Of a stretch of DNA of 64,000 nucleotides, positions 7,325-64,000 are shown one piece after another (position 1 is the stretch's first letter; every line of letters starts with the position of its first letter). Source of the stretch: an uncultured Flaviramulus sp. (lineage in GTDB: Bacteria; Bacteroidota; Bacteroidia; Flavobacteriales; Flavobacteriaceae). The DNA lies in the NCBI GenBank assembly GCA_947495125.1, contig CANLXL010000012.1, forward strand, positions 62,001 to 126,000, in the 5' to 3' direction. Below the pieces are notes generated by a model, which saw only the letters and a list, made by a program, of their open reading frames with translations, was not told the DNA's origin and did no database searches. Made by a program: the position numbers and the translations under genes.

Positions 7325-9652
7325 ATGCGAAACTCACAAAAACGATACTTGACAGCAGTTTGGATTATAGGACTATACTTTAATTTGCTAACATACGCAC
7401 AAACCCATAGTACAGCTACGAGTTATCTTGTAGACCAAATCGAAACCCTTGCAAAGCACTATCCTTCAGAATCAATATACTTACAAACCAGTAAAGGTAT
7501 TTATGAAACCGAAGAAGATGTTTGGTTTAAGGCTTATGTGCTAAATGCTCAATCCTTTATACCTTCAGTACAAAGTAAAACCTTGTTTGTCCAGCTTATA
7601 GATGATAAAACTCAACATGCCGTTTGGGAAGAGAAATATGAAATAGAAAATGGTTTTGTAGATGGTCATCTCTATTTGCAAGATTCGTTACAAACAGGAC
7701 GCTATACTTTAGCAGCTTATAGTGCGGGTTCATTTTACAGACATCCGGAAGCGATGAAAACCGTGCGGCAACTAAAAATTGTAAAAAGAATATCCGAAGA
7801 AAAAGAAATCGTTGAGGCAGACCGGGATAGTATACTCGACTTTAGGGTATTTCCGGAAGGGGGGCATTTAGTCTCCGGAATTCGAGGAGAGCTTGCTTTT
7901 AAAGCCGTCAACGGTAAGGGCTTGCCCGTAAGCGTATCCGGGACGCTCCTGGAAAACGACCGGCCGATACTGGAATTTAAAACGGAACACGCTGGTATGG
8001 GAAGCTTTGTATTTACCCCGGATATCAACAAACATTATCGTATCCAACTTTCAGATTCCTTAAACCCTAAAACCTACCCGATTCCTAATATCAAGCCCAA
8101 TGGAATTTCAATGCAGCTGACTGAAAATAATGAGAACTTTCTAATGGTTAAGCTGTCTCAAAATTCAAGTCGGGTTGCAAAGCACATTTATCTGAGCGTC
8201 CAAATACGGGGAGAGGTCCATAGTTTAGCCCATAGCCAATTAAAAGAGCAGGCAAAAATAAAGATTCCCCTAAAAAACCTACCCCAAGGCATTGCTGAAA
8301 TCACCATTTTCAATGAGAGTTTCGAGCCTATCTGTGAACGATTGGTTTATGTTAAAGCACATCAAAAATTAAATATAAAAACTTGGCTGAACCAAAGTGA
8401 GTATCAAACTAGAGAACAAGGAACCCTTAAAATAAAAGTTACAGACCATCAGGGGAACCCTGTTGTAGCACATTTAGGACTGAGTGTTTTTGATAAAATC
8501 TATGAGAACCCAAAAGATCCTAAAACTTTATTAACGCATTATTATCTCTCTACGCAGTTGAAGGGTTATATCTATAATCCGTCCTACTATTTTGATGCTA
8601 AAAACAAAAACAGAAAAGCAAACTTAGATCTATTGATGCTAACCCAAGGTTGGCGGCGTTATGTTTGGGCCTCGTCCCACATAAAAACACTAAGTCCCCA
8701 AAAACAAGCGATTTTTGAAACCATAAACGGGCAAGTTATATTTCCGAAGAAACAAAGAAAGCAACCTGCGGAAACACTACCAACATTAATGGCCTTTGCT
8801 CCTGAAAAAGAAGATCAAAGGGGTTTTGAAAATCTTATTCTTACAGATAGTACAGGCGCATTTACTATGATGCCTATGCATCTAAAACAAGGGAATCATG
8901 TTTACCTAAAACTAATGGTTCCTGAAGGTTCAAAGTATACGTTTAAAGCCAACGACGATGTGTTTAAAACGATTAATGCTTTAAGACTTCCGAAAACGAT
9001 ACATTACCCCATAGCTCCAACTCACAAAACAAGAAATGAAACCCCGGAACCCTTCAAATATCCTGCTGACATTAAAGTGCTGGATGAAGTGACACTAAAA
9101 ACGAAAAAAAGAAAAGTGTATCGCGATAAATATCTGGGGAAACTGGATAGTATTGCGAACCTCTGGAATAGGGATTATGTTGCCGTTTGTGGTGCTTTGA
9201 ATTGTTTTGTGCACGGTAGAAAAGGAAGTACAAAACCTGTAGATGGTGAAACGTATCGGGTCTTACTTGGTAAGAACAGGGAACAATTAGGCGAGTTCTA
9301 TAGCCAATCTACCTATTATGGCGAAACCCGGATCACCTATAAAAGACCTAAATATTCTGAAGCTTTTCTTTTAAAAAAATTCAACCTCATTAGAGTAAAG
9401 GGTTACTATGGTAAAAAAGAATTTTACCAACCTATCTATGACACTGAAACTCTAAATGATCCTTTTCCTGATAATCGCAATACTTTGCTCTGGAAACCCG
9501 ATATTATAACCGATACAAATGGTGAAGCAACGATTCGTTTTTCTTGTTCTGATATTAACACCAGATTCGTAGGCATTATAGAAGCTGTTGATAATACAGG
9601 TTTATTAGGACATGAGACTTTTGAGTTTTTGGTGCGAAAACGAGGCAATTAA
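7325..9652 (+). CDS. Exported MG2/alpha-2-macroglobulin-type repeat protein
   Basis: 775 residues from the ATG with a signal peptide ending near LLTYAQ. Early in the mature part comes SIYLQTSKGIYETEEDVWFK, the hallmark of MG2 (macroglobulin) domains in Bacteroidota envelope proteins. The last 60 residues (DTNGEATIRFSCSDINTRF) resemble the closing domain of the same family. These proteins usually carry a TonB-plug or carboxypeptidase-regulatory region; no plug is obvious here. The role is unknown, perhaps in envelope defence or surface assembly. A TATCTTTA box at 7271-7278 lies upstream and disfavours the earlier TTG at 7280. Confidence 0.7.
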   Translation: MRNSQKRYLTAVWIIGLYFNLLTYAQTHSTATSYLVDQIETLAKHYPSESIYLQTSKGIYETEEDVWFKAYVLNAQSFIPSVQSKTLFVQLIDDKTQHAVWEEKYEIENGFVDGHLYLQDSLQTGRYTLAAYSAGSFYRHPEAMKTVRQLKIVKRISEEKEIVEADRDSILDFRVFPEGGHLVSGIRGELAFKAVNGKGLPVSVSGTLLENDRPILEFKTEHAGMGSFVFTPDINKHYRIQLSDSLNPKTYPIPNIKPNGISMQLTENNENFLMVKLSQNSSRVAKHIYLSVQIRGEVHSLAHSQLKEQAKIKIPLKNLPQGIAEITIFNESFEPICERLVYVKAHQKLNIKTWLNQSEYQTREQGTLKIKVTDHQGNPVVAHLGLSVFDKIYENPKDPKTLLTHYYLSTQLKGYIYNPSYYFDAKNKNRKANLDLLMLTQGWRRYVWASSHIKTLSPQKQAIFETINGQVIFPKKQRKQPAETLPTLMAFAPEKEDQRGFENLILTDSTGAFTMMPMHLKQGNHVYLKLMVPEGSKYTFKANDDVFKTINALRLPKTIHYPIAPTHKTRNETPEPFKYPADIKVLDEVTLKTKKRKVYRDKYLGKLDSIANLWNRDYVAVCGALNCFVHGRKGSTKPVDGETYRVLLGKNREQLGEFYSQSTYYGETRITYKRPKYSEAFLLKKFNLIRVKGYYGKKEFYQPIYDTETLNDPFPDNRNTLLWKPDIITDTNGEATIRFSCSDINTRFVGIIEAVDNTGLLGHETFEFLVRKRGN

Positions 9653-12023: not shown

Positions 12024-13388
12024 TTAAATCCCATAACGTTTTATCTTGTTGTACAAGGTTTGTCTCGTAATCCCCAATTGATGAGCCGCTGCGCTAAAGT
12101 TCTGTTCGTGTTTCAATAAGGCATTTTCGATCATGGTTTTTTCCATATCACCCAACGTCGTATCCATTTTTTGAGATGCTGAAAAAGCCTGTTTTTTAAA
12201 TACAAAATCGTTAGAGGTGAGGGTATTATGTTCACTTAATATCACACTGCGTTCAATGGTATGCTGAAGCTCCCTAATATTCCCCGGCCATTGATGGTTT
12301 TGTAATTTCTTTTTAGCTGAAGCATTCAGTTTTAATCCCGGTTTTCCGTACTTATTAGCATAACTGTTCAAAAAATACGTTGCTAGTAAAAGCACATCAT
12401 CATCCCGAAATCGCAACGGTGGAACCTCAATTTGAATGGTGTTGATCCTATATAATAAATCTTCTCTAAATAAGCCTTCTTCCACCATCTGTTCTAAGTT
12501 ACAGTTGGTAGCACAAACCAATCTAATATCTACGGGAATGGGATTGTTGGAACCCACTCTAAAAAGGACTCTGTTTTGTAAAACGGCTAATAATTTAGCC
12601 TGCAATGCTAAACTAAGGTTACCAATTTCGTCAAGGAACAGTGTACCCCCATTGGCTGTTTCAAATTTCCCCGCATGGTCGTCATGAGCATCTGTAAAAG
12701 CCCCTTTAGAATGTCCAAAAAGTTCACTTTCAAAAAGGCTTTCGGTAATAGCGCCCATATCTACAGTTACTAAAACCTCTTCCCGTCTTGAAGATCCCTT
12801 GTGTATGGCTTGGGCAATAAGCTCTTTTCCAGTGCCGTTTTCTCCCGTTATTAAAATATTAGCCTTTGTTTTGGCCACTTTTTGGGTGACTTTTAACACC
12901 TGATTAATGGCTTTAGAATTTCCGATAATCGGACTATCATTTTTATTGATAAGCTGTTTTAAGTGTTTTGTTTTTTGTTTTAAATGACTGACTTCCTTTT
13001 TGGATTGCTGCAACTGGTATGCAGATTGTACGGTACTTAAGAGTTTATGGTTATCCCAAGGTTTCAATATAAAGTCTGTAGCACCTTCTTTTAAAGCGCG
13101 AACAGCTAATTCGACACCTCCGTATGCGGTCATCATAATAACCGAGGTGTTTGGCGTCAATGCCTTAATACGCTTTAGCCAATAAAATCCTTCATTCCCT
13201 GTATTTACACCGGCCGAAAAATTCATGTCCAATAATATCACGTTATAGCTTTTTAGTTCTGAAACAGACGTGATACCATTAGGGTTAGCTAATGTGGTTA
13301 CGGTTTTGTACTCAGACTGTAGTAACAGTTCCAAAGCACTTAATACGCTTTTTTTATCGTCTACAATAAGAATTTTTCCTTGTTTCAT
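12024..13388 (-). CDS. NtrC-family sigma-54-dependent response regulator
   Basis: 454 residues from the ATG; an upstream TTG start is less likely. The receiver domain has D54 (ILLDMNF), T87 and K109 (ILKPWD). The AAA+ domain has Walker A GENGTGKE (182-189) and Walker B LFLDEIG (250-256), and the sigma-54 contact loop reads GAFTDA instead of GAFTGA. A Fis-type helix-turn-helix ends the protein (LGITRQTLYNKIKRYGI). It should activate a -24/-12 promoter, and exactly such a promoter precedes the divergent exporter operon. The inverted repeat between them is the natural binding site. Confidence 0.92.
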   Translation of the reverse strand: MKQGKILIVDDKKSVLSALELLLQSEYKTVTTLANPNGITSVSELKSYNVILLDMNFSAGVNTGNEGFYWLKRIKALTPNTSVIMMTAYGGVELAVRALKEGATDFILKPWDNHKLLSTVQSAYQLQQSKKEVSHLKQKTKHLKQLINKNDSPIIGNSKAINQVLKVTQKVAKTKANILITGENGTGKELIAQAIHKGSSRREEVLVTVDMGAITESLFESELFGHSKGAFTDAHDDHAGKFETANGGTLFLDEIGNLSLALQAKLLAVLQNRVLFRVGSNNPIPVDIRLVCATNCNLEQMVEEGLFREDLLYRINTIQIEVPPLRFRDDDVLLLATYFLNSYANKYGKPGLKLNASAKKKLQNHQWPGNIRELQHTIERSVILSEHNTLTSNDFVFKKQAFSASQKMDTTLGDMEKTMIENALLKHEQNFSAAAHQLGITRQTLYNKIKRYGI

Positions 13389-13436
13389 GTGCGTAAACTT
13401 GTCACTCAAAACTAAGCAATAGTAGCATTCACTTTT

Positions 13437-13482
13437 AAAAAGTGTAAAATATTTTTACACTTTTTGTCAATTAATTTTACAC
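13437..13482. promoter_or_regulatory. Inverted-repeat operator/enhancer between regulator and exporter operons
   Basis: A perfect 13-bp inverted repeat with a 3-bp centre (13437-13449 and 13453-13465) has the core GTGTAAAA...TTTTACAC. A third half-site, TTTTACAC, lies at 13475-13482. The centre is about 120 bp upstream of the predicted sigma-54 transcription start, a normal enhancer distance, and about 60 bp from the regulator's own start codon, so autoregulation is also possible. Confidence 0.75.
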
Positions 13483-13546
13483 ACGGTTATAGATTTACAA
13501 TCTCTAACTACTCCTAAAGCTCTGTTTATCAGTATATTTTAAGTTA

Positions 13547-13562
13547 TGGCACACCCTTGGCA
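13547..13562 (+). promoter_or_regulatory. Sigma-54 (-24/-12) promoter of the exporter operon
   Basis: TGGCACACCCTTGGCA matches the TGGCAC-N5-TTGCA pattern with the GG and GC dinucleotides at the required spacing (GG at 13548-13549, GC at 13560-13561); only one T of the -12 element is changed. The predicted start near 13573 gives a leader of about 14 nt before the TolC ATG at 13587. Confidence 0.75.
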
Positions 13563-13586
13563 TAACAAAAGGAAACTGGTTAAAAG

Positions 13587-14951
13587 ATGTTTCAAAGAAC
13601 ACTATGGATTTTTGTTTTTGGATTATTATTATTTCCTTTTCAGGGGATTTCCCAAAAAGCATGGACATTAGAGGATTGCATCGCTTATGCTTTAGAGCAT
13701 AATCTTTTACAGGAAACACAGCATTACAATACCAAAATTAGTCAAGAACGATGGCGACAAAGTAAGCGCAATATGCTACCAAGTATTGGCATCTCATATC
13801 CTAGTTATAATGTAAGTTTCGGGCGCACCCTAGACCCGGTTACCAACAATTTTGTGGACACGCGGTTTGTGTCCGGTTTAAGTGGAGGATTATCTTCTTC
13901 ATTAACCCTTTTCGAATCTTTTAAAAAATGGCACACTTTATCTTACCAGAAGCTACTCTATGAATCTAGTCAGTTTGATACACAGCAAGCACAATACGAT
14001 TTAGCCTTTAGAGTTATGGATTTATTTAATAGTGTCCTATTTCAGGAAGGCACGTTGGAACTCATAAAAGAGCAGCATACATCCAATCTATTACATCAAA
14101 AGACCATTACCAAAAAGGTCGAGCTAGGCCTGGTCGCCAAGGCCGATTTTTACGAAATAGAGGCCGCTACAAGTGCAGGTGCCTTAGACCTATTAAAAGC
14201 TGAAAACGCACTTAAAGCGGCCAAGCTAGCCCTTGTTCAGGAAATGAATTTGGAGGCATCAGACATTAATATCCTGCAAGATATATCAATGCTCCAACCT
14301 TTTGACAATGACAAATCGTTGCAGATTGAAACCATATTTGGAGCCTCGCAAGAAATATTGCCCAGTCTTCAGAAAAGTAAAATAAGTGTAGAAACCGCTA
14401 AAAAAGACTTGGCGATAAAGAAAACGGCCCGATTTCCCAGGTTGAGTTTGAGTGCAGGTATTTCGTCCAGGTTTTCAGACAACTTTAAAGATCCTGCAGG
14501 AAGTACCGTTCCTTTTAGAGAACAGATAAAGAATAACCAATCTCAGTTTATAGGCTTATCTCTTAACTATCCTATTTTTGGCAATGGCAGAACGCGAAGC
14601 AATATCAAAATAGCCAAAATTCAATTAGAAAAAGCACAAACGCAATTAAAAATTGAGGAGCAGCGCACCTATAAAATCATCCAGGAATTACTACAAAAAA
14701 ATGAGGCCCTTATGGCTGAAGAACAGCTTAACTTTAAAAAGATAAAGGCCAAAGAGAAAGCCTATAATATTGCCCAAAAGAAATATGAAAAAGAATTGAT
14801 CAACCTCTACGAATTACAATTGGCAAGTAACACCTATTTATCGGCGAAGATCGAACAGGTACGATTAATGGCACAAATGGCTATGCAAAAACATACCATA
14901 GATTTTTATAACGGTACATTTTCATTGCCAACCTTAACCCCATCAAACTAA
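13587..14951 (+). CDS. TolC-family outer membrane efflux protein
   Basis: 454 residues with a signal peptide (about 1-22). The mature start WTLEDCIAYALEHN is the classic TolC-family opening, and two long helical coiled-coil halves repeat the pattern. TolC trimers form the outer membrane duct of tripartite exporters. First gene of the sigma-54-controlled operon; the adaptor gene follows after 4 bp. Confidence 0.9.
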   Translation: MFQRTLWIFVFGLLLFPFQGISQKAWTLEDCIAYALEHNLLQETQHYNTKISQERWRQSKRNMLPSIGISYPSYNVSFGRTLDPVTNNFVDTRFVSGLSGGLSSSLTLFESFKKWHTLSYQKLLYESSQFDTQQAQYDLAFRVMDLFNSVLFQEGTLELIKEQHTSNLLHQKTITKKVELGLVAKADFYEIEAATSAGALDLLKAENALKAAKLALVQEMNLEASDINILQDISMLQPFDNDKSLQIETIFGASQEILPSLQKSKISVETAKKDLAIKKTARFPRLSLSAGISSRFSDNFKDPAGSTVPFREQIKNNQSQFIGLSLNYPIFGNGRTRSNIKIAKIQLEKAQTQLKIEEQRTYKIIQELLQKNEALMAEEQLNFKKIKAKEKAYNIAQKKYEKELINLYELQLASNTYLSAKIEQVRLMAQMAMQKHTIDFYNGTFSLPTLTPSN

Positions 14952-53185: not shown

Positions 53186-53247
53186 TTTTATAAGAAAAAT
53201 TAGCTAACTTCGTTTAACAATCGATAAAGTTCATTGAAACGGGGTTT

Positions 53248-53255
53248 TATCTTTG
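53248..53255 (+). promoter_or_regulatory. -7 box of the PhoD-like gene
   Basis: TATCTTTG matches TAnnTTTG and places the transcript start after 53255, so the lipoprotein ATG at 53279 is the likely start. No 11-bp heptamer array precedes it. Confidence 0.5.
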
Positions 53256-53278
53256 TATTAGGCAACCTTGACCGCACC

Positions 53279-54790
53279 ATGATAAAATCAATTATAATAA
53301 CCCTTCTGATCGCCACACTTATTGTCTCATGCAAACCCAAGATTCAGAACATTTATCTTGGACAAGGAATTATGGCTGGTGAAGCAACTTCATCATCTGT
53401 AATCTTACAATCGAGATTAACAGCTTCTGACACCTTGATCAACGGTGATTTAACTGGTGAAAAAGGGCTTGCGAGATTTGAAATTGATAAGGATTCTACT
53501 TTTGACAATCCTTTGTATTCAGACTTTACTCTAGCTCTATCAGAGAATGACTTTATTATTAAAAAGAAAATTGAAGGTCTGGAGCCGGGAAATAAATACT
53601 TCTATCGTCTCCAATTTGGTACGGACAAGAATTCTCTTTTTGAAAGTGAAATAGCAACATTTAAAACCTTGCCCGGACCGAATAGCAGTACAAAATTATC
53701 ATTGGTCGTAGTATCTGGTATGAACTACAATTTTTTCCATTTCGGAAATTATGAAGATGGCACAGCGTATTCAGGAAAAGACAAGCTTCAAGGGTATCCG
53801 GCATTGAGGGCTATCCAAAACCTGAACCCAGATTACTTTATTGGTACGGGTGATAACGTTTACTTTGACCATCCTAACAAGAGGAGCTTTGATAGAGCAG
53901 TTAAAGCTGGGAAGAACCCGAGCCCCGGAAGATATAAGGGGATGGAAGTTGTGGATGAAAAAGGAATGCGCAGGAAATACCATGAACAATTTGTTCAACC
54001 AAGGTTTCGAGAGCTTTTTAGCAAGGTGGTAACCTACTGGGAAAAGGATGATCATGATTATAGATTCAATGATGCTGATCCCTGCCAGAAGTTTCCTATA
54101 TCCCATGAATTGGGGATTAAGAATTTTAAGGAGCAACTACCTGTGGTGAATCCAGATGACATAAACGCAAAAACGTATCGTACGCATCGCATGAGCCGAG
54201 ACCTCCAAATTTGGCTGTTAGAAGGAAGAGATTATAGAAGTCCTAATCAAATGAAAGATGGCCCCGACAAAACTCTTTTGGGAACTGAGCAATTAAATTG
54301 GCTTAAGGAAACATTAATGGAGAGTGACGCTAGTTTTAAGCTCATAATTTCACCTACTCCAATGGTAGGACCCGATGATGCCTACAAAAGAGATAATCAT
54401 GTAAATCATGAAGGTTTCAGGTATGAAGGAGAAGCCATTTTCAAATGGTTAATTGATAATGGTTTCCTTGAAAAAAATCTTTATATCATATGTGGCGACA
54501 GACATTGGCAATACCATGCCATGCACCCGAGTGGAATCGAAGAATTCTCTACAGGCGCCTTGATTGATAATAATTCACGCCCCGGGCGCCTAGCAGGAGA
54601 CCCCAATTCGACTGATCCCGATGAATTGATTAAACAATACTATATTCAAGGGGATATGGAGTCTGCAAGTGGTGGGTTTTTGTCAATTACAGTGAAAAGA
54701 AAAGAAAGTATTCCAATGGCATCCTTTCAATATTATGATGAACAGGGAAATTTACTTTATGAGACAAAAAAACTAGCCGTAATTAAATAA
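53279..54790 (+). CDS. PhoD-like alkaline phosphatase/phosphodiesterase (lipoprotein)
   Basis: 503 residues, lipobox Cys at 18 (LIVSC). An N-terminal beta-sandwich (YLGQGIMAGEATSSSVILQS) precedes the PhoD metallophosphatase core. Metal-binding patterns are IGTGDNVYFDHP, WEKDDHDYRFND, ICGDRHWQYHA and the FSTGAL end. It probably releases phosphate from phosphoesters at the cell surface. It stands 1.8 kb before the phosphate-type regulon but lacks the heptamer array found there. Confidence 0.85.
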   Translation: MIKSIIITLLIATLIVSCKPKIQNIYLGQGIMAGEATSSSVILQSRLTASDTLINGDLTGEKGLARFEIDKDSTFDNPLYSDFTLALSENDFIIKKKIEGLEPGNKYFYRLQFGTDKNSLFESEIATFKTLPGPNSSTKLSLVVVSGMNYNFFHFGNYEDGTAYSGKDKLQGYPALRAIQNLNPDYFIGTGDNVYFDHPNKRSFDRAVKAGKNPSPGRYKGMEVVDEKGMRRKYHEQFVQPRFRELFSKVVTYWEKDDHDYRFNDADPCQKFPISHELGIKNFKEQLPVVNPDDINAKTYRTHRMSRDLQIWLLEGRDYRSPNQMKDGPDKTLLGTEQLNWLKETLMESDASFKLIISPTPMVGPDDAYKRDNHVNHEGFRYEGEAIFKWLIDNGFLEKNLYIICGDRHWQYHAMHPSGIEEFSTGALIDNNSRPGRLAGDPNSTDPDELIKQYYIQGDMESASGGFLSITVKRKESIPMASFQYYDEQGNLLYETKKLAVIK

Positions 54791-56481: not shown

Positions 56482-56558
56482 TAACATTAAAGTAACATTT
56501 TAATCATTGTTGTTTAATGATTAGATAACATTTCAATAAAAGTAAAGCTATTAATTTG
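56482..56558 (+). promoter_or_regulatory. Pho-box-like array and promoter of the stand-alone regulatory-domain gene
   Basis: Heptamers at exact 11-bp steps: TAACATT (56482), TAACATT (56493), TCATTGT (56504), TAATGAT (56515), TAACATT (56526), TAAAAGT (56537). The last one ends 7 bp before TTAATTTG (56551-56558), a near-consensus -7 box. The ATG follows 21 bp after the box. Confidence 0.75.
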
Positions 56559-56579
56559 GGGTATTATTAAAACTGTACC

Positions 56580-56969
56580 ATGAAGCATCTAGTTACTTTA
56601 TTCATCATACTTTTTACACCACTTTGTTTTGCCCAAAATACGGGTATGATCGTGGGTAAAATTTTAGATAAAGAGTTTTCTGAAAATCCATTGGTGCTTG
56701 CCAATGTATCTGTAAAAGGGACTTCTATTAGCGCTAATACCGATTTAACCGGTCTATTTGTTATCGAGAATTTGGAAGATGGCATCTATACTTTGGTTTG
56801 TAGTTTTACCGGTTATGAAACTAAAGAACTTAAGGTTGAGGTGTCTTCAGATAACGCTACCAACGTAAAATTAGCGCTGGGAGCAAGTAGTATTTCTTTG
56901 GCTGATCTCGCATCACTTGGCAACACTGCTGAAAATGAAGATCAAAAAAGAACAACAGAATTAAAATAA
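56580..56969 (+). CDS. Stand-alone carboxypeptidase-regulatory-like domain protein
   Basis: 129 residues: signal peptide (1-19), then one beta-sandwich domain (MIVGKILDKEFSENPLVLAN, TDLTGLFVIENLEDGIYTLV) and a short charged tail. It resembles the N-terminal domain of the receptor encoded next, as though that domain were copied out on its own. It has its own array promoter and its own terminator, so it is an independent transcript. Function unknown; it might bind TonB or the same partner as the receptor's domain. Confidence 0.8.
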   Translation: MKHLVTLFIILFTPLCFAQNTGMIVGKILDKEFSENPLVLANVSVKGTSISANTDLTGLFVIENLEDGIYTLVCSFTGYETKELKVEVSSDNATNVKLALGASSISLADLASLGNTAENEDQKRTTELK

Positions 56970-57001
56970 AGCACACTTTAAATTCATCATATTTATTAAA
57001 G

Positions 57002-57028
57002 GCCGGAACATTGCGTTCCGGCTTTTTT
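57002..57028 (+). terminator. Terminator of the stand-alone domain gene
   Basis: GCCGGAAC and GTTCCGGC form a perfect 8-bp stem with a 5-nt loop followed by six T. Confidence 0.9.
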
Positions 57029-57110
57029 CATATCGCATCTTTTATTATTTATCCATGACTTTCCAATGTTAAATTATTGTTTACAATCTTAAAAACAAAC
57101 GCAAATATCA

Positions 57111-57187
57111 TAACATTCGCATAACGCTTTTATTACGGTTCTTTAATCTCTTAGTAACATAGTGTTTACATATGCTGTCTTTCTTTG
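57111..57187 (+). promoter_or_regulatory. Pho-box-like array and promoter of the TonB receptor gene
   Basis: Six heptamers at exact 11-bp steps: TAACATT (57111), TAACGCT (57122), TTACGGT (57133), TAATCTC (57144), TAACATA (57155), TTACATA (57166). The last ends 7 bp before TTTCTTTG (57180-57187). The ATG at 57209 is 21 bp after the box. Confidence 0.8.
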
Positions 57188-57208
57188 CAAAAAATAATTA
57201 AGAACATA

Positions 57209-59950
57209 ATGAAAAAAATATCACTATTATTAGTGCTAATTACGTCGACACTTACATTTGCACAGAACACGGGTTCTGTCGTAGGGAAACTAATAGATAA
57301 GGAATACAATAACGAGCCCTTAGCTTTTGCTAATGTATTGATTAAGGGCACCACTAAAGGAACCACATCGGATTTTGATGGCTTATATGGGTTTAACGAT
57401 TTAGATGCCGGATCCTATACTTTAGTCTTCAGTTTTGTAGGTTACGAAACTCAGGAAATAGCTGTGACCGTTGTTGCAGGAAAAGTTACCGAATTAAATG
57501 TTCCTATGGGAGCCAGTGCAGCCTCTTTGGATGAGATCGTCATTACAACTACAACCAAGAGAGAAAGTGAAACCGCACTACTATTAGAGCAGAAGAAAGC
57601 CACCGTTATCAAAGAAAGTATCGGAGCAGAAAGACTATCTAAAATAGGAGTTTCTGATGCCGCTGCAGCGACTACAAAAATTTCTGGGGTTACTAAAAGT
57701 GAAGGTTCCGGAGATATTTATATCAGAGGTCTTGGTGACCGCTATTTATCTACCACCATGAATGGATTGCCTATTCCTTCCGATAATGTGGATAATAAAA
57801 ATATAAACCTTAACCTGTTCTCTACCAATATCATTGAAAATGTTGGTATTAGTAAGACCTATGCAACCTCAGGGTATGCCGATCAAACTTCAGGAAATGT
57901 AGACATCACATCTAAAGAATATTCAAAAAAACAAGTCTCTGTAAGTGTTGGTACAGGATATAACACTAATGTTTTAGGATTGGACGGTGATTTCAAAAGA
58001 AGTATTGCTACAGAAGATGTAACCTTAGGGTTCCATAAGAAGCAGTTTGCCACGGTTGACCTGATTACAAGACAAAGTTGGGCTCCTGTAGTTCAAAACA
58101 GTACGGCAAACTATAGTTTATCGGTATCCGGTGGAAGAAAATTTGATGTTTTCGGAAAAAAACTATCTGTATTTGTCGCCGGTTCTCACTCGAATGCCTA
58201 TGAGTACCAGGATGGTTTATTCAGAAGTTACAGATCTAACATCTTGGATAACGAATTTACCGATGTGGAATCGTTTACGACCAAAACAAACTCCACGGGG
58301 TATATCAATCTCGGGCTTAAATTAAATGACAACCACAGGATTAAAATTAGCAGTTTATCGGTAAATAAAAGTACAGATAATGTTTATGAGCAAGGTAGGA
58401 ATGGATTGGGCTATGTTTTCGATCAGGATCCTCAGGAAGATGGTGCTTTTGTAAGAGATCAAAATTTCAAGCAAACTAAAATGCTTGTTAACCAAATCAT
58501 CGGGAATCACAAAACAAGTGAATTCAATACCATTACATGGGCTGCAGGCTACAATTTCGTTTTGGCCGAGGAGCCTAATCGTGTTAGAAATGAAGCCAAT
58601 ATTTTAGATGCGAATACAGTTCAGTATGCACACGTTGGTGATTTTCAACAAAGAAAATCGAATCAGAAAATTGAAGATGTTGAGTATAACGCTTACCTAA
58701 AAGACGCCCTGAGCTTTGGCCAGTTAGATGAAGATGAAAACAAACCATTTAAACTTCATGTTGGTGCTAATGTTCGTAAAAAGGAACGTGTATTCAGTTC
58801 TCTATTTATCGGTGTTAGAGCCAGAGATTTTCAAGTCCCTTCTGTGGACGACTTTTCACTGACGTTTACCGAAGCTAATTTTAGCAATGGTTTGGTTTTA
58901 AGAGAAAGAGATCCGGATAGATACGATGCCGATCTAACCATTTTCTCCGGGTATGCAAACTTAGACTTTGGGTTAAATAAAAAATTCTCTGGAAACATTG
59001 GTATCCGCTATGAAAGAGATGAGATCAATGTATTGTGGGATGTGGCTAACTTCGTTGGACGTGTTGGTTCCATAGCTAAAGAATATAATGATATTTATCC
59101 GAGCATTAATTTAAAATACGAACTCGGCGAAAATACGTTTTTACGTTTTGCCTCAAGTTTAACCCAAACCCTTCCGGAATTTAAAGAACTGTCTCCATTT
59201 GAATATGTGTCTCCAACGGGTCGTGTGACCAGAGGAGATCCAAATTTGGAAAAATCGGATGTTTTTAATGCAGATTTAAAATGGGAATTTTTTCCTAAAA
59301 AAAGCGAGTTGGTTTCTGCTACAGCCTTTTACAAGCAAATTAAAAACCCTATTAATTTAGCACTTACAAGAGGGTCTGCCGGAATCTTCCAATTCTCGAA
59401 TACCGGTGAAAAAGCCAATGTCTTTGGTGTTGAGTTTGAGACAAGATTGAATCTGATTGAAAATGAAGATGAAAAACCAATGCTAAACTTCAATACAAAC
59501 ATCACCAAAATGTGGTTTAATCAGGATTTACTGGAAGAATTCCAGTACAAGAACATTACGGAATCTGATCTGCAAGGGGCTTCCGATTTAATCCTGAATG
59601 GATCTTTAGGCTATAACAATCAAAAAGAAAGAGAATTTATAGCCACAATTACCGGTAACTACTCATCAGATAAAATATTTGCCTTAGGAGCTCCGGAAGA
59701 TTTTGCCAATAGTGCGGTATTGTATAATGATGAAATTATTGAAAAAGGCTTTTTTGCTATGGATTTAGTGGTAAGCAAACAAATAACCGATAAGTTATTA
59801 CTAAAATTTGTAGGTAGAAATCTTCTTAATCCGAGCATTGAGCAAACACAATTAATCAGAGACATTAATACCGGTGTTGAGACTAACGAAGTTGTCAGTT
59901 CTTATAAAAAAGGAAGCCTGTTGAGCCTAAATTTAAAATACACATTCTAA
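57209..59950 (+). CDS. TonB-dependent receptor, probable phosphate-regulated
   Basis: 913 residues from the ATG; an earlier TTG at 57185 would fall in the promoter. A signal peptide and a carboxypeptidase-regulatory domain come first (VVGKLIDKEYNNEPLAFANV, SDFDGLYGFNDLDAGSYTLV). The plug follows (KISGVTKSEGSGDIYIRGLG), then a beta-barrel ending SLLSLNLKYTF. It is not the SusC kind: there is no SusD beside it. With an adjacent beta-helix lipoprotein and porin, and the shared array promoter, it probably imports a phosphorus compound; that role is inference. Confidence 0.9.
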   Translation: MKKISLLLVLITSTLTFAQNTGSVVGKLIDKEYNNEPLAFANVLIKGTTKGTTSDFDGLYGFNDLDAGSYTLVFSFVGYETQEIAVTVVAGKVTELNVPMGASAASLDEIVITTTTKRESETALLLEQKKATVIKESIGAERLSKIGVSDAAAATTKISGVTKSEGSGDIYIRGLGDRYLSTTMNGLPIPSDNVDNKNINLNLFSTNIIENVGISKTYATSGYADQTSGNVDITSKEYSKKQVSVSVGTGYNTNVLGLDGDFKRSIATEDVTLGFHKKQFATVDLITRQSWAPVVQNSTANYSLSVSGGRKFDVFGKKLSVFVAGSHSNAYEYQDGLFRSYRSNILDNEFTDVESFTTKTNSTGYINLGLKLNDNHRIKISSLSVNKSTDNVYEQGRNGLGYVFDQDPQEDGAFVRDQNFKQTKMLVNQIIGNHKTSEFNTITWAAGYNFVLAEEPNRVRNEANILDANTVQYAHVGDFQQRKSNQKIEDVEYNAYLKDALSFGQLDEDENKPFKLHVGANVRKKERVFSSLFIGVRARDFQVPSVDDFSLTFTEANFSNGLVLRERDPDRYDADLTIFSGYANLDFGLNKKFSGNIGIRYERDEINVLWDVANFVGRVGSIAKEYNDIYPSINLKYELGENTFLRFASSLTQTLPEFKELSPFEYVSPTGRVTRGDPNLEKSDVFNADLKWEFFPKKSELVSATAFYKQIKNPINLALTRGSAGIFQFSNTGEKANVFGVEFETRLNLIENEDEKPMLNFNTNITKMWFNQDLLEEFQYKNITESDLQGASDLILNGSLGYNNQKEREFIATITGNYSSDKIFALGAPEDFANSAVLYNDEIIEKGFFAMDLVVSKQITDKLLLKFVGRNLLNPSIEQTQLIRDINTGVETNEVVSSYKKGSLLSLNLKYTF

Positions 59951-59954
59951 TTAA

Positions 59955-59984
59955 CATTAAGATAACAAAACCCTGGTCTTAATG
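59955..59984 (+). terminator. Possible weak terminator after the receptor
   Basis: CATTAAGA and TCTTAATG are inverted around a 14-nt loop just after the receptor stop codon; no T-run follows. Confidence 0.35.
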
Positions 59985-59993
59985 GGATAAAAG

Positions 59994-60048
59994 TAACTTA
60001 TGTTTAATATTCTGTTAAAGAAGAAGAAAAGTCGAATCCTGTTCTTTG
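59994..60048 (+). promoter_or_regulatory. Pho-box-like array and promoter of the beta-helix lipoprotein gene
   Basis: Weaker heptamers at 11-bp steps: TAACTTA (59994), TAATATT (60005), TAAAGAA (60016), AAAAGTC (60027). The last ends 7 bp before GTTCTTTG (60041-60048), the same -7 octamer as at the porin gene. Confidence 0.55.
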
Positions 60049-60084
60049 CATAAGAATATATATCATAAAAATTAACTATTAAAA

Positions 60085-62124
60085 ATGAAAAAATTATCTT
60101 TAAAATTATTCAGTCTGGCCTTAGTATTTACTGCTAGTCATTTAACAAGCTGTAGTTCTGATGACCCGGCCCCCATAGTAGCCTCTAAGGGAGAAGTTAT
60201 CGAAGACCTGGATGCAGGTACGATGAAAGGAACTTTAGACGAAGACTATACACTTGATGCTTCAACGGTTTATAATTTAACCGGACAGTTCATTATTGAA
60301 GAGGGAGCTACTTTAAATATTCCTGCCGGAACAAGAATTCTTGCTGACAATGGTGGTACAGATGTCTATATTGCCGTTTTACAAGGTGGAGAAATAAATA
60401 TAAACGGCAATGCGGGTAACCCTGTGGTGATGTCTTCTGCCGATGGAAACCCCGGAGACTGGGGTGGTTTAACCTTATGCGGAAAGGCAACAACAACTGC
60501 CGGAGTAGATGCACAAGCTGAAGTTGGAGGCTTTATTTACGGAGGGAATGACGATACCGACAGTTCCGGAATTATAAGGTACCTGCAAATTGTTGGTACA
60601 GGTGCTCAAATCAACACAGAGTCTCAATATAATGGTGTGTCTTTTTACGCTGTTGGTTCAAGTACATTGGTAGACCATGTTGCCGTAATAAACGGATCTG
60701 ATGATGGGGTTGAGTTTTTTGGAGGAACAGTTTCTGCATCTAACTTATACTTAGAGAACAACGATGATGATTCCATCGACTGGACTGAAGGGTGGAATGG
60801 AACAGTTACAAATGCCTATATTTCTCATACGGTTGCAGGTTTCTCAACAGTTTTTGAAGGGGATAAGGATAACGGAAACCCTAAATTCAATAATATTACA
60901 GCGATCTCGACGGTTGGAGGTACCGCTTTACAATTCAAAAAACAATCTGGTGGAACCATTACAGGTTTGTCCTTAAGTGGTTATGATACTGATTTAGACA
61001 TGAAAGATGGTGGGGATCCAGCCAATGTTATTTTTAACGATGGTTACGCTCCTGTGGCCTTTGCAACTCCTGAAAAGCAAGTAGAAACGGGTGACTATTT
61101 TTACGCTTTAAATACTTCGGTTCTGCCTACAGTAGATGCTTCCGATTTTGATTGGGTAGATTCAAATCTATCATTTGAAACCAGTGTCCTACAAGGTGCT
61201 GTTACGGGTAATGTTACATTAGATGCTTCTGTAAATTACACGCTTAACTCTTCTTACATTGTACAAAGCGGTGGAAAATTAACCATTCCTGCCGGTACTA
61301 AAATTACGGCCAGAGATGGTGGAACAGGCGTTTACATCGCTGTGTTACAAGGTGGAGAAATCGATATTCAAGGTACAGCATCAGATCCTGTTGTTATTGC
61401 TTCTGCAAATGCGCAAGGTGGTGACTGGGGTGGTTTAACGATCTGTGGAAACGCAACGACTACAGCTGGTGTTGATGCGGTTGCAGAAGTTGGAGGCTTC
61501 GTTTATGGAGGTACTCTGGATACGGACAATTCCGGTTCCATAAAATATTTAGTGCTTAAAGGTACCGGTGCTCAAATTAACTCTGAATCTCAATACAACG
61601 GGCTTTCTTTATATGCCGTTGGCTCCGGAACAACCATTGAAAATATCGCTGTAATCAATGGTTCCGATGATGGTGTTGAATTCTTTGGAGGTACAGTTTC
61701 TGCATCGAGCTTATATTTGGAAAACAATGATGACGATTCTATAGACTGGACTGAAGGGTGGAGTGGTTCTGTTACCAATGCTTATATTTCTCATACTGTT
61801 GCCGGTTTTTCGACCGTTTTTGAAGGCGATAAAGACAATGGAAACCCAACATTTACAAACATTACAGCTATCTCTAGTGTAGGCGGTACAGGCTTACAGT
61901 TTAAAAAGCAATCTGGCGGAACTATTACCGGTTTACACTTGGTAGGTTACGATGTAGATCTGGACATGAAAGATGGTGGCGCTTTAGCTAACGTTCAAAT
62001 TGAAGGTGCAGATGCTGATGCAACTCTAATTACCGGAGAAACTAAAAAGTACACTTTAAATTCCGGAAAAGATGCTACGGCCATAGATATTTCCGGATGG
62101 ACCTGGAAAAATGCTAATTTATAA
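60085..62124 (+). CDS. Exported lipoprotein with two tandem beta-helix repeats
   Basis: 679 residues, lipobox at TSCSS. Two copies of a ~270-residue unit (about 45-315 and 370-640) are very alike, sharing GGDWGGLTICGNATTTAGVD-type, YNGVSFYAVG/YNGLSLYAVG, NGSDDGVEFFGGTVSAS and FEGDKDNGNP blocks. Short repeats rich in Gly/Asn/Asp suggest a right-handed beta-helix. The DNA of the copies is also alike, so the duplication is recent or kept homogeneous. It is probably surface-exposed and works with the receptor before it. Function unknown. Confidence 0.7.
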   Translation: MKKLSLKLFSLALVFTASHLTSCSSDDPAPIVASKGEVIEDLDAGTMKGTLDEDYTLDASTVYNLTGQFIIEEGATLNIPAGTRILADNGGTDVYIAVLQGGEININGNAGNPVVMSSADGNPGDWGGLTLCGKATTTAGVDAQAEVGGFIYGGNDDTDSSGIIRYLQIVGTGAQINTESQYNGVSFYAVGSSTLVDHVAVINGSDDGVEFFGGTVSASNLYLENNDDDSIDWTEGWNGTVTNAYISHTVAGFSTVFEGDKDNGNPKFNNITAISTVGGTALQFKKQSGGTITGLSLSGYDTDLDMKDGGDPANVIFNDGYAPVAFATPEKQVETGDYFYALNTSVLPTVDASDFDWVDSNLSFETSVLQGAVTGNVTLDASVNYTLNSSYIVQSGGKLTIPAGTKITARDGGTGVYIAVLQGGEIDIQGTASDPVVIASANAQGGDWGGLTICGNATTTAGVDAVAEVGGFVYGGTLDTDNSGSIKYLVLKGTGAQINSESQYNGLSLYAVGSGTTIENIAVINGSDDGVEFFGGTVSASSLYLENNDDDSIDWTEGWSGSVTNAYISHTVAGFSTVFEGDKDNGNPTFTNITAISSVGGTGLQFKKQSGGTITGLHLVGYDVDLDMKDGGALANVQIEGADADATLITGETKKYTLNSGKDATAIDISGWTWKNANL

Positions 62125-62160
62125 ATTAGTGAATTTCAAGTTAACACAACATTAAATACA

Positions 62161-62192
62161 AAAAAAGCATCCTAATTTAGGATGCTTTTTTT
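62161..62192. terminator. Bidirectional terminator
   Basis: AAGCATCCTAA and TTAGGATGCTT form a perfect stem with A- and T-runs at both ends. It lies between the convergent lipoprotein gene (+) and the MORN-repeat gene (-) and can end both. Confidence 0.9.
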
Positions 62193-62211
62193 ATGTTTAA
62201 TATGCTTTTGT

Positions 62212-62565
62212 TTAAAATCCTTGATTCGTTTTATTAATTTCAGATTCTTTTAAACCAGCAATAGCGTTTGCGCTATAATCTACTTCTTTTACTGTTTCTT
62301 TAGTCCAGTAAAACCATTTGCCGACTTTCTTACCATTATCATAATTTGCAGAAACTACTTTTTTGCCTTCTGTGTTAAAGCTTAACCACTCACCGTGTAA
62401 TTTACCATCTGCTGTGTAAGTCCCTGTTTGGCTTACAGCACCATTGTCATGATAATAAACAACTTCAATTAAGTTGGTGTCTTTGTTAAGTTTTAAATCT
62501 CTCTTTTGTTGTCCAAAAGATACCACAGTAATTAAAAAGGCAAAACATAAAATTGTGTTCTTCAT
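62212..62565 (-). CDS. Exported MORN-repeat-variant protein
   Basis: 117 residues with a signal peptide ending VVSFGQQ. The mature part has MORN/YwqK-type repeats (YYHDNGAVSQTGTYTADGKL, GEWLSFNTEGKKVVSANYDN, GKKVGKWFYW). Such proteins are often called YwqK-type antitoxins, but here export makes an envelope role more likely. A full TATCTTTG box on the minus strand lies 27 bp upstream. Confidence 0.8.
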   Translation of the reverse strand: MKNTILCFAFLITVVSFGQQKRDLKLNKDTNLIEVVYYHDNGAVSQTGTYTADGKLHGEWLSFNTEGKKVVSANYDNGKKVGKWFYWTKETVKEVDYSANAIAGLKESEINKTNQGF

Positions 62566-62591
62566 AATTATGGGGGTTTAACATTATACAT

Positions 62592-62599
62592 CAAAGATA
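62592..62599 (-). promoter_or_regulatory. -7 box of the MORN-repeat gene
   Basis: Minus-strand TATCTTTG, a full TAnnTTTG match, just inside the edge of the heptamer array at 62598-62659. Confidence 0.55.
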
Positions 62600-62659
62600 A
62601 GTTTTAGATAACACTAACGCAACACTTACGTAACATTAAATTAACATTAGAATAGTATT
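62598..62659 (+). promoter_or_regulatory. Pho-box-like heptamer array upstream of the MORN-repeat gene
   Basis: Heptamers at 11-bp steps on the plus strand: TAAGTTT (62598), TAACACT (62609), CAACACT (62620), TAACATT (62631), TAACATT (62642), TAGTATT (62653). They point away from the minus-strand gene whose promoter they abut. No -7 box was found 7 bp after the last one on the plus strand. Confidence 0.6.
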
Positions 62660-62706
62660 GATATGATTATCAATGTTTTAAAAAATAAAATTTAACATTG
62701 GAAGTT

Positions 62707-62761
62707 TAATAATTACTTAATATTAGGGTTACATTAAGATTAATTTAAACCATGATATTTG
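62707..62761 (+). promoter_or_regulatory. Pho-box-like array and promoter of the putative small RNA
   Basis: TAATAAT (62707), TAATATT (62718), TTACATT (62729), TTAATTT (62740) at 11-bp steps. The last ends 7 bp before GATATTTG (62754-62761), the register used at the neighbouring promoters. Confidence 0.55.
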
Positions 62762-62766
62762 TGATG

Positions 62767-62868
62767 TCTTAAGACAAAATAATTAGTATTTCATATAATC
62801 TATTAGTTTTTGTCGACTACATTATTATGATTTCTAACTGAGGTTGCCTTGGCCAAGGCAACCTTTTT
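62767..62868 (+). ncRNA. Putative ~100-nt small RNA under the array promoter
   Basis: A promoter-like register ends at 62761 and a strong plus-strand terminator lies at 62842-62868, with no open reading frame longer than a few codons between them. The minus-strand gene runs the other way, so the terminator has no other plus-strand transcript to end. A perfect palindrome TGTCTTAAGACA (62765-62776) marks the predicted 5' end. Existence of the RNA is inferred; ends are approximate. Confidence 0.5.
62842..62868 (+). terminator. Terminator before the porin gene
   Basis: A perfect palindrome: 9-bp stem GGTTGCCTT with AAGGCAACC around GGCC, followed by five T on the plus strand only. Confidence 0.85.
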
Positions 62869-62878
62869 AGTTAAAATT

Positions 62879-62922
62879 TAATCATTAGGAAACATTAAGT
62901 TAACATTGGTTTTAGTTCTTTG
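62879..62922 (+). promoter_or_regulatory. Pho-box-like array and promoter of the porin gene
   Basis: TAATCAT (62879), AAACATT (62890), TAACATT (62901) at 11-bp steps. The last ends 7 bp before GTTCTTTG (62915-62922). The ATG at 62947 is 24 bp after the box. Confidence 0.7.
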
Positions 62923-62946
62923 CAGCGACAAAAACTAATACTTATA

Positions 62947-64000
62947 ATGAAGTTTAAAATTACCTGTATTGCACTATGTCTTTTTGCAATACTGACATCG
63001 CACTCACAAGAGGTTAAATCACCTAAGTTTGGAAAAGGCCTCTTTAATCTTGTTGGACAAGATAGTAGTTGGACCATGAAAATTGGCGCCAGAATGCAAT
63101 TTTTAGCAATTTCTAACTGGGAAGACGGCGCAGATAACGAAGCGAATTTTTTAGTAAGACGAGCTCGTTTAAAATTTGATGGCTACGCCTTTACACCAAA
63201 ACTTAAATATAAAATAGAGCTGGGGTTATCTAATCGGGACATCTCCGGTGCATCACAATTTACAAGTAACGCTCCCCGATATATCTTAGACGCCGTAATG
63301 AAATGGAACTTTGCACCGGGTTTCGAACTTTGGTTTGGACAAACTAAACTCCCCGGTAACAGAGAACGTGTGGTTTCTTCAGCTAATCTGCAGCAAGTCG
63401 ATCGTTCACTTTTGAACAGTCGATTCAATATTGACCGAGATGTGGGCATTCAATTAAAACATAAGTTTAATTTAAGTGACACATTTGTTGTAAAAGAGAC
63501 CTTTTCTATTGCCCAGGGTGAAGGTAGAAACGTAACGACCGGGAATTTAGGAGGACATCAATTTACCGGACGCGTCGAACTCTACCCGTTTGGAAATTTT
63601 GCCAGTAAAGGCGACTATAAAGGTTCTGATTTAAAACGCGAACAAAAACCGAAATTAGCCTTAGGTGTGAGTTACGACCATAATAATAATGCCGTTAAGA
63701 CGCGAAGTAACATGGGCTCTTATATGGTTACGGATACCGGTTTTTTTGAAACGAATATCAATACCCTTTTTATAGACGCGATGTTTAAGTACAGAGGCTT
63801 CTCTTTGATGGCTGAATATGCCGATAGAGATGCTAAAGATCCATTTGCAAAAAACTCCGATGGTACCCTTACGGGAGACGCGGTTCAGGTGGGTAAAGGT
63901 TTAAACTTACAAGCCGGTATTTTATGTAAAAACGATTGGGAAATTTCGGGACGTTTTACAAACATTCATTTAATTAAAAGCATTACCGGGAAGAATAACG
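62947..64000 (+). CDS. OprO/OprP-type phosphate-selective porin, 3' end outside window
   Basis: The first ~351 codons are present. A signal peptide (1-20, ending LTSHSQ) is followed by the family start: WTMKIGARMQFLAISNWEDG, FLVRRARLKFDGYAFTPKLK and APGFELWFGQTKLPGNRERV, as in Bacteroidota phosphate-selective porins O and P. Alternating strands form an outer membrane barrel. The family typically takes up phosphate or polyphosphate and commonly sits before Pst genes, which would lie beyond the right edge. It carries the array promoter. Confidence 0.88.
   Translation, partial: MKFKITCIALCLFAILTSHSQEVKSPKFGKGLFNLVGQDSSWTMKIGARMQFLAISNWEDGADNEANFLVRRARLKFDGYAFTPKLKYKIELGLSNRDISGASQFTSNAPRYILDAVMKWNFAPGFELWFGQTKLPGNRERVVSSANLQQVDRSLLNSRFNIDRDVGIQLKHKFNLSDTFVVKETFSIAQGEGRNVTTGNLGGHQFTGRVELYPFGNFASKGDYKGSDLKREQKPKLALGVSYDHNNNAVKTRSNMGSYMVTDTGFFETNINTLFIDAMFKYRGFSLMAEYADRDAKDPFAKNSDGTLTGDAVQVGKGLNLQAGILCKNDWEISGRFTNIHLIKSITGKNN

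Follow-up and report, generated by a model that had tools for sequence, protein, structure and literature searches.

A putative phosphate-responsive module of Flavobacteriaceae with 11-bp phased operator arrays and a small RNA complementary to a porin leader

The window analysed here is a stretch of 64,000 nucleotides (nt) from an uncultured Flaviramulus species (contig positions 62001-126000, G+C 36%; the source genome comprises 5.36 Mb in 58 contigs). Near its end a predicted small RNA (sRNA) lies between a MORN-like gene and a porin O/P gene, and arrays of short units repeated every 11 base pairs (bp) stand before the sRNA, the porin and neighbouring genes. These features probably form a phosphate-starvation regulatory module of Flavobacteriaceae, in which PhoB would bind the arrays and the sRNA would act as a brake on the porin; we give this explanation as a whole a probability of about three in four. 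The arrays, their period, their target genes, the sRNA family and a conserved, co-varying complementarity between sRNA and porin leader are all directly visible in the DNA. Comparisons were made with the best 80 of 475 public loci, selected by porin alignment, which together with the window's own locus make 81; several of these end early at contig ends. Loci, genomes and contigs carry labels beginning with L (e.g. L135), G (e.g. G029) and C.

The small RNA and the porin leader

The sRNA is likely the centre of the locus. By sequence alone it has a promoter of its own (array and box) and an intrinsic terminator, and the predicted starts of the sRNA and of the porin mRNA (Table 1) follow from taking the box as positions -12 to -5. 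The sRNA region (62768-62872) has a z of -3.84. The preliminary description of this DNA had called the sRNA only putative; the comparisons point to a conserved RNA. Exact copies of the 16-mer seed were found in 51 of 149 genomes of the family (56 matches, two of them leader-like), against 0 for the reversed control. The sRNA model R1 recovered it in 15 of 59 relatives at E <= 0.001, missing readable copies in G003, G042 and G046. The window sRNA scores 96 bits with R1, in whose training set it is included. No Rfam family matched the sRNA above its gathering threshold.

The sRNA stretch TTAGTTTTTGTCG complements GACAAAAACTAA directly 3' of the porin box, and the predicted porin mRNA start, 62927, is the G of GACAAAAACUAA. 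The best gapless pairing between leader and upstream DNA averaged 29.6 in 77 of the 80 loci (the remaining three are short of upstream DNA), compared with a mean of 16.9 (standard deviation 2.4) for shuffled upstream DNA. The maximum of 610 shuffling trials, 29.5, was exceeded by 51 of the 77 loci. A pairing score of at least 26 was reached by 54 of 76 porin genes but by only 5 of 721 neighbouring genes, and seed and leader motif were both present in 81 of 97 loci. The exact leader pattern was found in 35 of the 149 genomes (37 matches; reversed control 7), and 29 of the 37 have an exact seed 114-208 bp upstream of them, the distance being 114-140 bp in 26 of these pairs. The seed occurs without an exact leader in 23 genomes and an exact leader without the seed in 7. 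With up to one mismatch the leader pattern is found once in the source genome (control 3).

The two arms also change together. Over 34 distinct combinations, and counting six bases beyond the core, arms paired with their own partners scored 163.5 against 141.5 (standard deviation 3.7) for permuted partners, a value reached in 0 of 20,000 permutations; the permutation ignores kinship, so this figure is strong yet not a calibrated probability. The set retains one mispicked seed (L073), which counts against pairing. Double changes that preserve pairing are found in L235 (CAAAG/CTTTG), L071 (CTTTA/TAAAG), L140 (CGA/TCG) and also L174, and in L161 a double change falls inside the core (GACTAAAA with TTTTAGTC). 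One-sided changes that preserve a G-U pair are seen in L122, L171, L175, L178 and L067. In L068 pairing extends over the core only.

Several loci carry unusual versions of the pair. In L147 (about 190-310) 25 perfect sRNA-leader pairs reach into the -7 box, as if one arm had been recently copied. G164 contains the exact seed-leader pair twice, at C1:1063402-1063536 and, about 117 kb away, at 1180669-1180805, and so two copies of the module. In G099 (C1:55349-55487) and G071 (C32:9573-9712) exact copies of the 16-mer seed point towards each other across about 125 bp, and the leader would there complement the full 16-mer including GACT. L195 has a variant core in the sRNA and a variant leader both at the porin and at a second outer-membrane barrel gene before pstS (13254-14279), each variant leader having one A more than the seed has U; the second barrel gene, which has an array, is a possible second sRNA target.

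The 11-bp arrays and their promoters

The preliminary description had proposed arrays of heptamers near TAACATT, phased at 11 bp, before five transcription units: the stand-alone domain gene, the TonB-dependent receptor, the lipoprotein, the sRNA and the porin. All five were found where it had placed them, though the array at the lipoprotein is weak and, in the six-unit arrays, several of the units in the middle match poorly. Arrays were scored as 7-base units near TAACATT at 11-bp steps plus TTTG at a fixed distance, against 2000 dinucleotide shuffles of the same stretch. None of the 2000 shuffles reached the observed score at the stand-alone, receptor, sRNA or porin site; at the lipoprotein site 8 did so in one run and 13 in another. 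The sRNA figure refers to 62660-62790, the top score in a wider stretch falling on the array on the MORN side. With three units only, the numbers of shuffles were 2 (stand-alone), 13 (receptor), 113 (lipoprotein) and 1 (sRNA promoter) of 2000. Four of the five arrays are far beyond chance. Upstream of the lipoprotein gene, two better units at 59952 and 59963 are out of phase with its array.

In the 81 loci, considering only genes with at least 90 nt upstream, the fraction of promoters having an array with TTTG that scores at least 17 of 22 was 0.91 for the porin (80 promoters), 0.71 for the receptor (42), 0.76 for the stand-alone gene (25) and 0.59 for the sRNA (56). The corresponding fractions were 1.00 for 15 stand-alone-like promoters (short receptor-matching frames) and 0.32 for 28 lipoprotein promoters. 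The preliminary description had asked whether AT-rich intergenic DNA yields such arrays as often; it does not, the fraction being 0.02 among 335 other genes and 0.00 among 51 HD genes. Periods from 7 to 15 other than 11 gave at most 0.07 in every promoter class. The 7-bp spacing said to lock each array to its box holds in part. The distance from array to box peaks at one offset in porin, receptor, stand-alone-like and PHO4 promoters and weakly in lipoprotein promoters; no such peak appeared in the scan of the relatives' stand-alone and sRNA promoters, so for these two classes the lock may not be general.

A profile, R2, was built from 41 array promoters, the window's porin and receptor sites among them. 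Over the 5.36 Mb of the source genome its top four matches all fall at this locus (porin, receptor, MORN-side array, stand-alone gene), and the latter two were outside the training set. In 25 genomes R2 gave 25 matches at E <= 0.001, distributed over 15 genomes. Judged by coordinates and adjacent genes, 8 lie at porins and 9 at genes for the receptor, the stand-alone protein or the lipoprotein; 3 fall in the MORN/sRNA stretch and 2 next to MORN-like genes in other places (L281, L291); 1 is between a PhoB-like and a lipoprotein gene (L282, in G029), and 2 are not assigned (L277, L290). Simple pattern scans of the source genome were discarded as too noisy (32 matches against 13 for the reversed control; 24 against 19). 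Nine weaker R2 matches elsewhere in that genome, inspected by eye, showed no evident phosphate gene, and no wider regulon was found there: the inspected pattern and R2 matches outside the window are intragenic or stand before genes without an evident phosphate link, with the exception of one pattern match inside a PHO4-type gene (L042).

The box that follows the forward arrays is unusual. The Bacteroidota sigma-A consensus is TAnnTTTG at -12 to -5 (PMC9723704; this and the other papers cited are drawn on for the parts considered here). Octamers were counted only in promoters with an array of at least 13/18 and TTTG, namely 69 of 80 porin, 30 of 42 receptor, 15 of 15 stand-alone-like, 9 of 25 stand-alone, 7 of 28 lipoprotein and 24 of 56 sRNA promoters. 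They begin with TA in 1 of the 69 porin and 1 of the 24 sRNA promoters and in none of the receptor (0/30), stand-alone-like and stand-alone (0/15 and 0/9) or lipoprotein (0/7) promoters, in total 2 of 154, and thus depart from TAnnTTTG; GTTATTTG, GTTCTTTG and TTTCTTTG are examples. PHO4 genes with promoters of their own differ, being TA-initial in 5 of the 7 counted (of 16).

A sixth array, in reversed orientation before the MORN-like gene (62609-62659), was absent from the preliminary description, as was the missing TA of the box. At the usual distance from this array the + strand has TATTGATA and no TTTG box. Reversed four-unit arrays occur in 44 of 53 MORN promoters of relatives against 0.00 of 335 other genes; TTTG follows the array in 37 of the 44, and the octamer is TA-initial in 24 of these 37. 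The HD genes have reversed arrays in 0.25 of 51 cases because they diverge from forward arrays. This argument could be applied to the MORN-like gene too, yet L281 and L291 retain the array with no porin locus following. We infer that a forward array marks dependence on an activator and a reversed array repression of the MORN-like gene. The arrangement at 62592-62659 is likely a different mode of control.

In its sequence the array is best described as a Pho-box-type operator with its own unit and Bacteroidota promoter geometry. Pho boxes are head-to-tail 11-bp direct repeats, with 7 conserved and 4 less conserved positions, upstream of phosphate genes, and their consensus is species-dependent (PMC4415409). 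The window arrays share the 11-bp direct repeats before phosphate genes but differ in having up to six units, a 7-bp lock before a mostly TA-less Bacteroidota octamer, and the reversed array before the MORN-like gene. The unit also differs from the E. coli box, as had been noted earlier (TTAACAT here, CTGTCAT there). It is presumably close to the B. subtilis PhoP box, TTAACA.

Candidate regulator, mechanism and alternatives

The genes themselves suggest phosphate. The porin O/P gene is followed by a PHO4 phosphate permease gene, a content that agrees with the Pho reading put forward at the outset. In three Lutibacter loci (L135, L142, L195) pstS has its own array and box, scoring 19/25 each, so the predicted phasing before Pho genes was recovered there; in L135 and L142 pstS, pstC, pstA, pstB and phoU come after the porin (L135 by Pfam, L142 by eye). 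Four proteins of the source genome contain Trans_reg_C. One, at C1:956 kb, has a PhoR-like kinase adjacent downstream, and its best model is PhoB (TIGR02154). In G029, from another family, a PhoB-like gene is divergent from the array before a lipoprotein gene (L282); its product is 67% identical to the candidate over 227 residues and likewise fits PhoB models best without reaching their cut-offs. Because the candidate fits PhoB best and this relative adjoins an array, PhoB is likely the binder. Upstream of the phoB-like gene of the source genome (L032), 93 nt before position 8829, two GTGTTA units in reversed orientation are spaced by 11 bp, possibly autoregulation or chance.

The proposal that the arrays form a Pho-type OmpR-family operator before a Bacteroidota -7 box is supported by their geometry, the phosphate genes, the pstS arrays, the PhoB-like gene of G029 and the corresponding F. 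johnsoniae cluster, whose receptor and lipoprotein genes are strongly induced when phosphate is depleted (PMC8115612), although as first stated it was incomplete with regard to the sRNA, the reversed array and the missing TA. We infer that PhoB is the binder, and likewise where transcription starts, that the genes are expressed and which sign the two regulations have. Phosphorylated PhoB, probably the OmpR-family protein with its kinase gene adjacent on contig C1, would occupy the 11-bp units (near TTAACATTAAN) in head-to-tail order and recruit RNA polymerase to a weak -7 box, xTTnTTTG, which lacks the TA of TAnnTTTG. This would switch on the stand-alone domain protein, the TonB-dependent receptor, the lipoprotein, the porin-PHO4 operon and the sRNA of about 103 nt. 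The sRNA stretch UUAGUUUUUGUCG would then pair with the porin leader, 20 nt long, over what are predicted to be its first 12-15 nt (GACAAAAACUAA), and most likely hinder ribosome loading, in bacteria that do without Shine-Dalgarno pairing. Initiation in F. johnsoniae is tuned by low structure from -20 to +20 and by adenines at -3, -6, -12 and -13, and uses no Shine-Dalgarno sequence (PMC6847099); pairing over -20 to -9 should hinder loading. The porin would in this way come under an incoherent feed-forward brake. At the reversed units, which precede a full-consensus box, PhoB would probably repress the divergent MORN-like gene. The fuller statement, that a phosphate-switched, family-wide sRNA is dedicated to one porin and silences it by capping its first 12-15 nt, with one operator activating in forward and repressing in reversed orientation, is tentative and falls a little short of an even chance.

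A number of results weigh against this explanation. On the RNA side, the predicted fold of the window sRNA pairs the seed with the RNA's own 5' arm, which resembles the porin leader, so that pairing with the mRNA would require the seed to open first. Averaged over 65 sRNAs, the seed has an unpaired probability of 0.54 against 0.40 for the whole RNA. RNAalifold on a MAFFT alignment of 27 sRNAs (A2) gave almost no consensus structure, with 4 pairs and none compensatory; the terminators are misregistered in this alignment, and R1 is therefore in effect a sequence profile. The helix flanking the seed is only modestly above shuffles (13.9 against 11.7). The RNAduplex energy is undistinguished (-26.9; shuffle mean -19.0, best -30.0). 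Sixteen of the 97 loci have no seed-leader pair, two of them for lack of upstream DNA. Seven loci (L125, L133, L153, L167, L181, L183, L184) have a leader-like motif and no R1 sRNA in the stretch searched, and G014 has the sRNA and no exact leader, the motif being absent from its two porin paralogues. In Lutibacter the pairing is imperfect, with a wobble in L134, a bulge in L135 and a mismatch in L142. On the regulator side, the candidate is below both PhoB equivalog cut-offs (223 against 296 bits for TIGR02154; 218 against 270), and no forward array was found in the 260 nt upstream of its gene. The source genome has no PstS above cut-off. Phasing before Pho genes also fails at a PhoD-type phosphatase gene in the window (53234-54790), which has only a 5.1-bit R2 match upstream (E 2.4) and no clear array. 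Finally, it is puzzling that an activator should raise both the porin and the porin's brake.

One alternative keeps the pairing and reverses its sign: the sRNA would activate the porin or stabilise its mRNA, pairing at the 5' end shielding it from 5'-end-dependent decay. The predicted pairing does begin at nt +1 of the mRNA, and porin and sRNA apparently share an activator, which would fit a cooperative role. The paired stretch, however, lies within -20 of the start codon, in the low-structure region of F. johnsoniae mRNAs (PMC6847099). In that species OprP, a TonB-dependent receptor, a beta-helix lipoprotein and phoBR form one cluster, and under depletion of inorganic phosphate the receptor and lipoprotein genes are strongly induced (fold changes 8.0 and 9.9) while OprP RNA is not (-1.3, adjusted p 0.25; PMC8115612). 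If that species has the sRNA, flat OprP RNA beside strongly risen neighbours would agree with a porin brake, and also with other causes. We regard this alternative as unlikely.

The sRNA could also have its true targets at other genes, the porin leader serving it as a decoy, and G014, which retains the sRNA without an exact porin leader, and the variant leader at the barrel gene before pstS in L195 are compatible with this. Against it, 33 of the 35 genomes having any exact leader have just one, shorter pairings being outside the search, and the idea seems improbable.

A different OmpR-family regulator might occupy the arrays in place of PhoB. The three other Trans_reg_C proteins of the source genome all have RprY as their best model, under its cut-off (L034 matches in its C-terminal part only), and the PhoB candidate is itself under cut-off; but the targets are phosphate genes and a gene whose product is 67% identical to the candidate adjoins an array in G029, which makes another binder rather improbable still.

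Two further readings dispense with a trans-acting sRNA and were rejected mainly on the Lutibacter arrangement and the G-U-preserving changes. In one, the inverted repeat would form a long-range hairpin in cis that hides the porin leader in read-through transcripts. Both arms are on one strand in most loci, and only 114-140 bp separate them in 26 of the 29 exact pairs, as a hairpin would have it; but a terminator hairpin stands between the arms (49 distinct best helices over 65 sRNAs, a few evidently misplaced), the sRNA has its own array and box, and in the Lutibacter loci L134, L135 and L142 the sRNA (at about 5.5 kb) and the porin (at about 9.0 kb) are some 3.4 kb apart with opposite-strand genes between them, including one of sulfate-permease type (Pfam for L135), so that this hairpin is very improbable. 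In the other, the least credible reading, the complementary stretches would be the half-sites of an operator for another DNA-binding protein; a DNA operator could likewise evolve in step. One arm, however, lies within the sRNA, and its partner is placed at the predicted +1; a G-U pair survives several of the one-sided changes, as RNA pairing would favour; and the source genome has no further exact seed or leader.

If the sRNA brake is real, it would be an sRNA strategy for a phylum that does without Shine-Dalgarno pairing and lacks the site that sRNAs usually target. The locus offers a target pair for studying such control, with seed, leader, predicted start and natural compensatory variants named. 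It also offers a sequence-level Pho operator for Flavobacteriaceae; in the parts considered of the open-licence literature searched, neither such a box nor the window sRNA was found. The contrast between the weak -7 box at the forward arrays and the full box at the reversed one makes activation and repression by one regulator testable.

Gene setting and known systems

The coordinates of the features are given in Table 1. The 777-aa PHO4 permease that comes after the porin lies beyond the window end. The lipoprotein had no Pfam or NCBIfam match at the thresholds applied.

Table 1. Features of the locus in window coordinates; for arrays, matches out of 7 are given for each unit.
Feature	Coordinates	Strand	Details
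Array before stand-alone gene, 6 units (two poor)	56482..56543	+	7,7,3,4,7,5
-7-type octamer TTAATTTG of stand-alone gene	56551..56558	+	
Stand-alone CarboxypepD_reg-like domain protein, 129 aa	56580..56969	+	PF13715, 5.7e-19
Array before TonB-dependent receptor, 6 units	57111..57172	+	7,5,4,4,6,5; R2 E 1.8e-7
-7-type octamer TTTCTTTG of TonB-dependent receptor	57180..57187	+	
TonB-dependent receptor, CarboxypepD_reg and Plug domains	57209..59950	+	scanned from codon 2
Weak array before lipoprotein, 4 units	59994..60033	+	5,6,3,3
-7-type octamer GTTCTTTG of lipoprotein	60041..60048	+	
Lipoprotein	60085..62124	+	corresponds, by gene set, to F. johnsoniae FII (beta-helix, IPR011050)
Small MORN-like protein, divergent from sRNA and porin	62212..62565	-	PF07661, 22.6 bits, cut-off of 29.6 not reached
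Full-consensus -7 box TATCTTTG of MORN-like gene	62592..62599	-	
Array reversed relative to MORN-like gene, 5 units	62609..62659	+	6,5,7,7,5
Array of sRNA promoter, 4 units, last degenerate	62707..62746	+	5,6,6,4
-7-type octamer GATATTTG of sRNA	62754..62761	+	predicted start 62766
sRNA, about 103 nt	62766..62868	+	from GUCUUAAGAC to T run of intrinsic terminator; hairpin 62842-62863
sRNA seed TTAGTTTTTGTCGACT	62803..62818	+	62803-62815 complementary to porin mRNA 5' end
Array of porin promoter, 3 units	62879..62907	+	4,6,7; R2 E 1.7e-11, top match in source genome
-7-type octamer GTTCTTTG of porin	62915..62922	+	predicted start 62927
GACAAAAACTAA, complement of sRNA seed	62927..62938	+	predicted first 12 nt of 20-nt porin leader
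Porin O/P	62947..64000	+	runs to about 64137, beyond the window

The locus resembles the F. johnsoniae cluster PUSIV, with which it has OprP, the TonB-dependent receptor and the beta-helix lipoprotein FII in common. It differs in that phoBR lies within PUSIV (PMC8115612), whereas the PhoB/PhoR-like pair of the source genome is elsewhere, on contig C1. The main text of that paper, as far as considered, has 0 occurrences of 'pho box', 'motif' and 'promoter'. In B. fragilis, of the same phylum, PhoB binds a pst promoter fragment, and no box sequence is defined in the portions of that report considered (PMC3547664). The nearest flavobacterial sRNA found is Rfp18, a conserved Flavobacterium sRNA, compared here by description only (PMC9723704). 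Its reported targets are proteases and an adhesin, reached through its third stem-loop.

BLAST searches of relatives with the window proteins recover a recurrent gene order: HD, stand-alone domain protein, TonB-dependent receptor, lipoprotein, MORN-like protein, porin and PHO4. Across the 81 loci the porin is present in 81, PHO4 in 78, HD in 58, MORN in 53, receptor-matching frames in 52, the lipoprotein in 49 and the stand-alone gene in 25.

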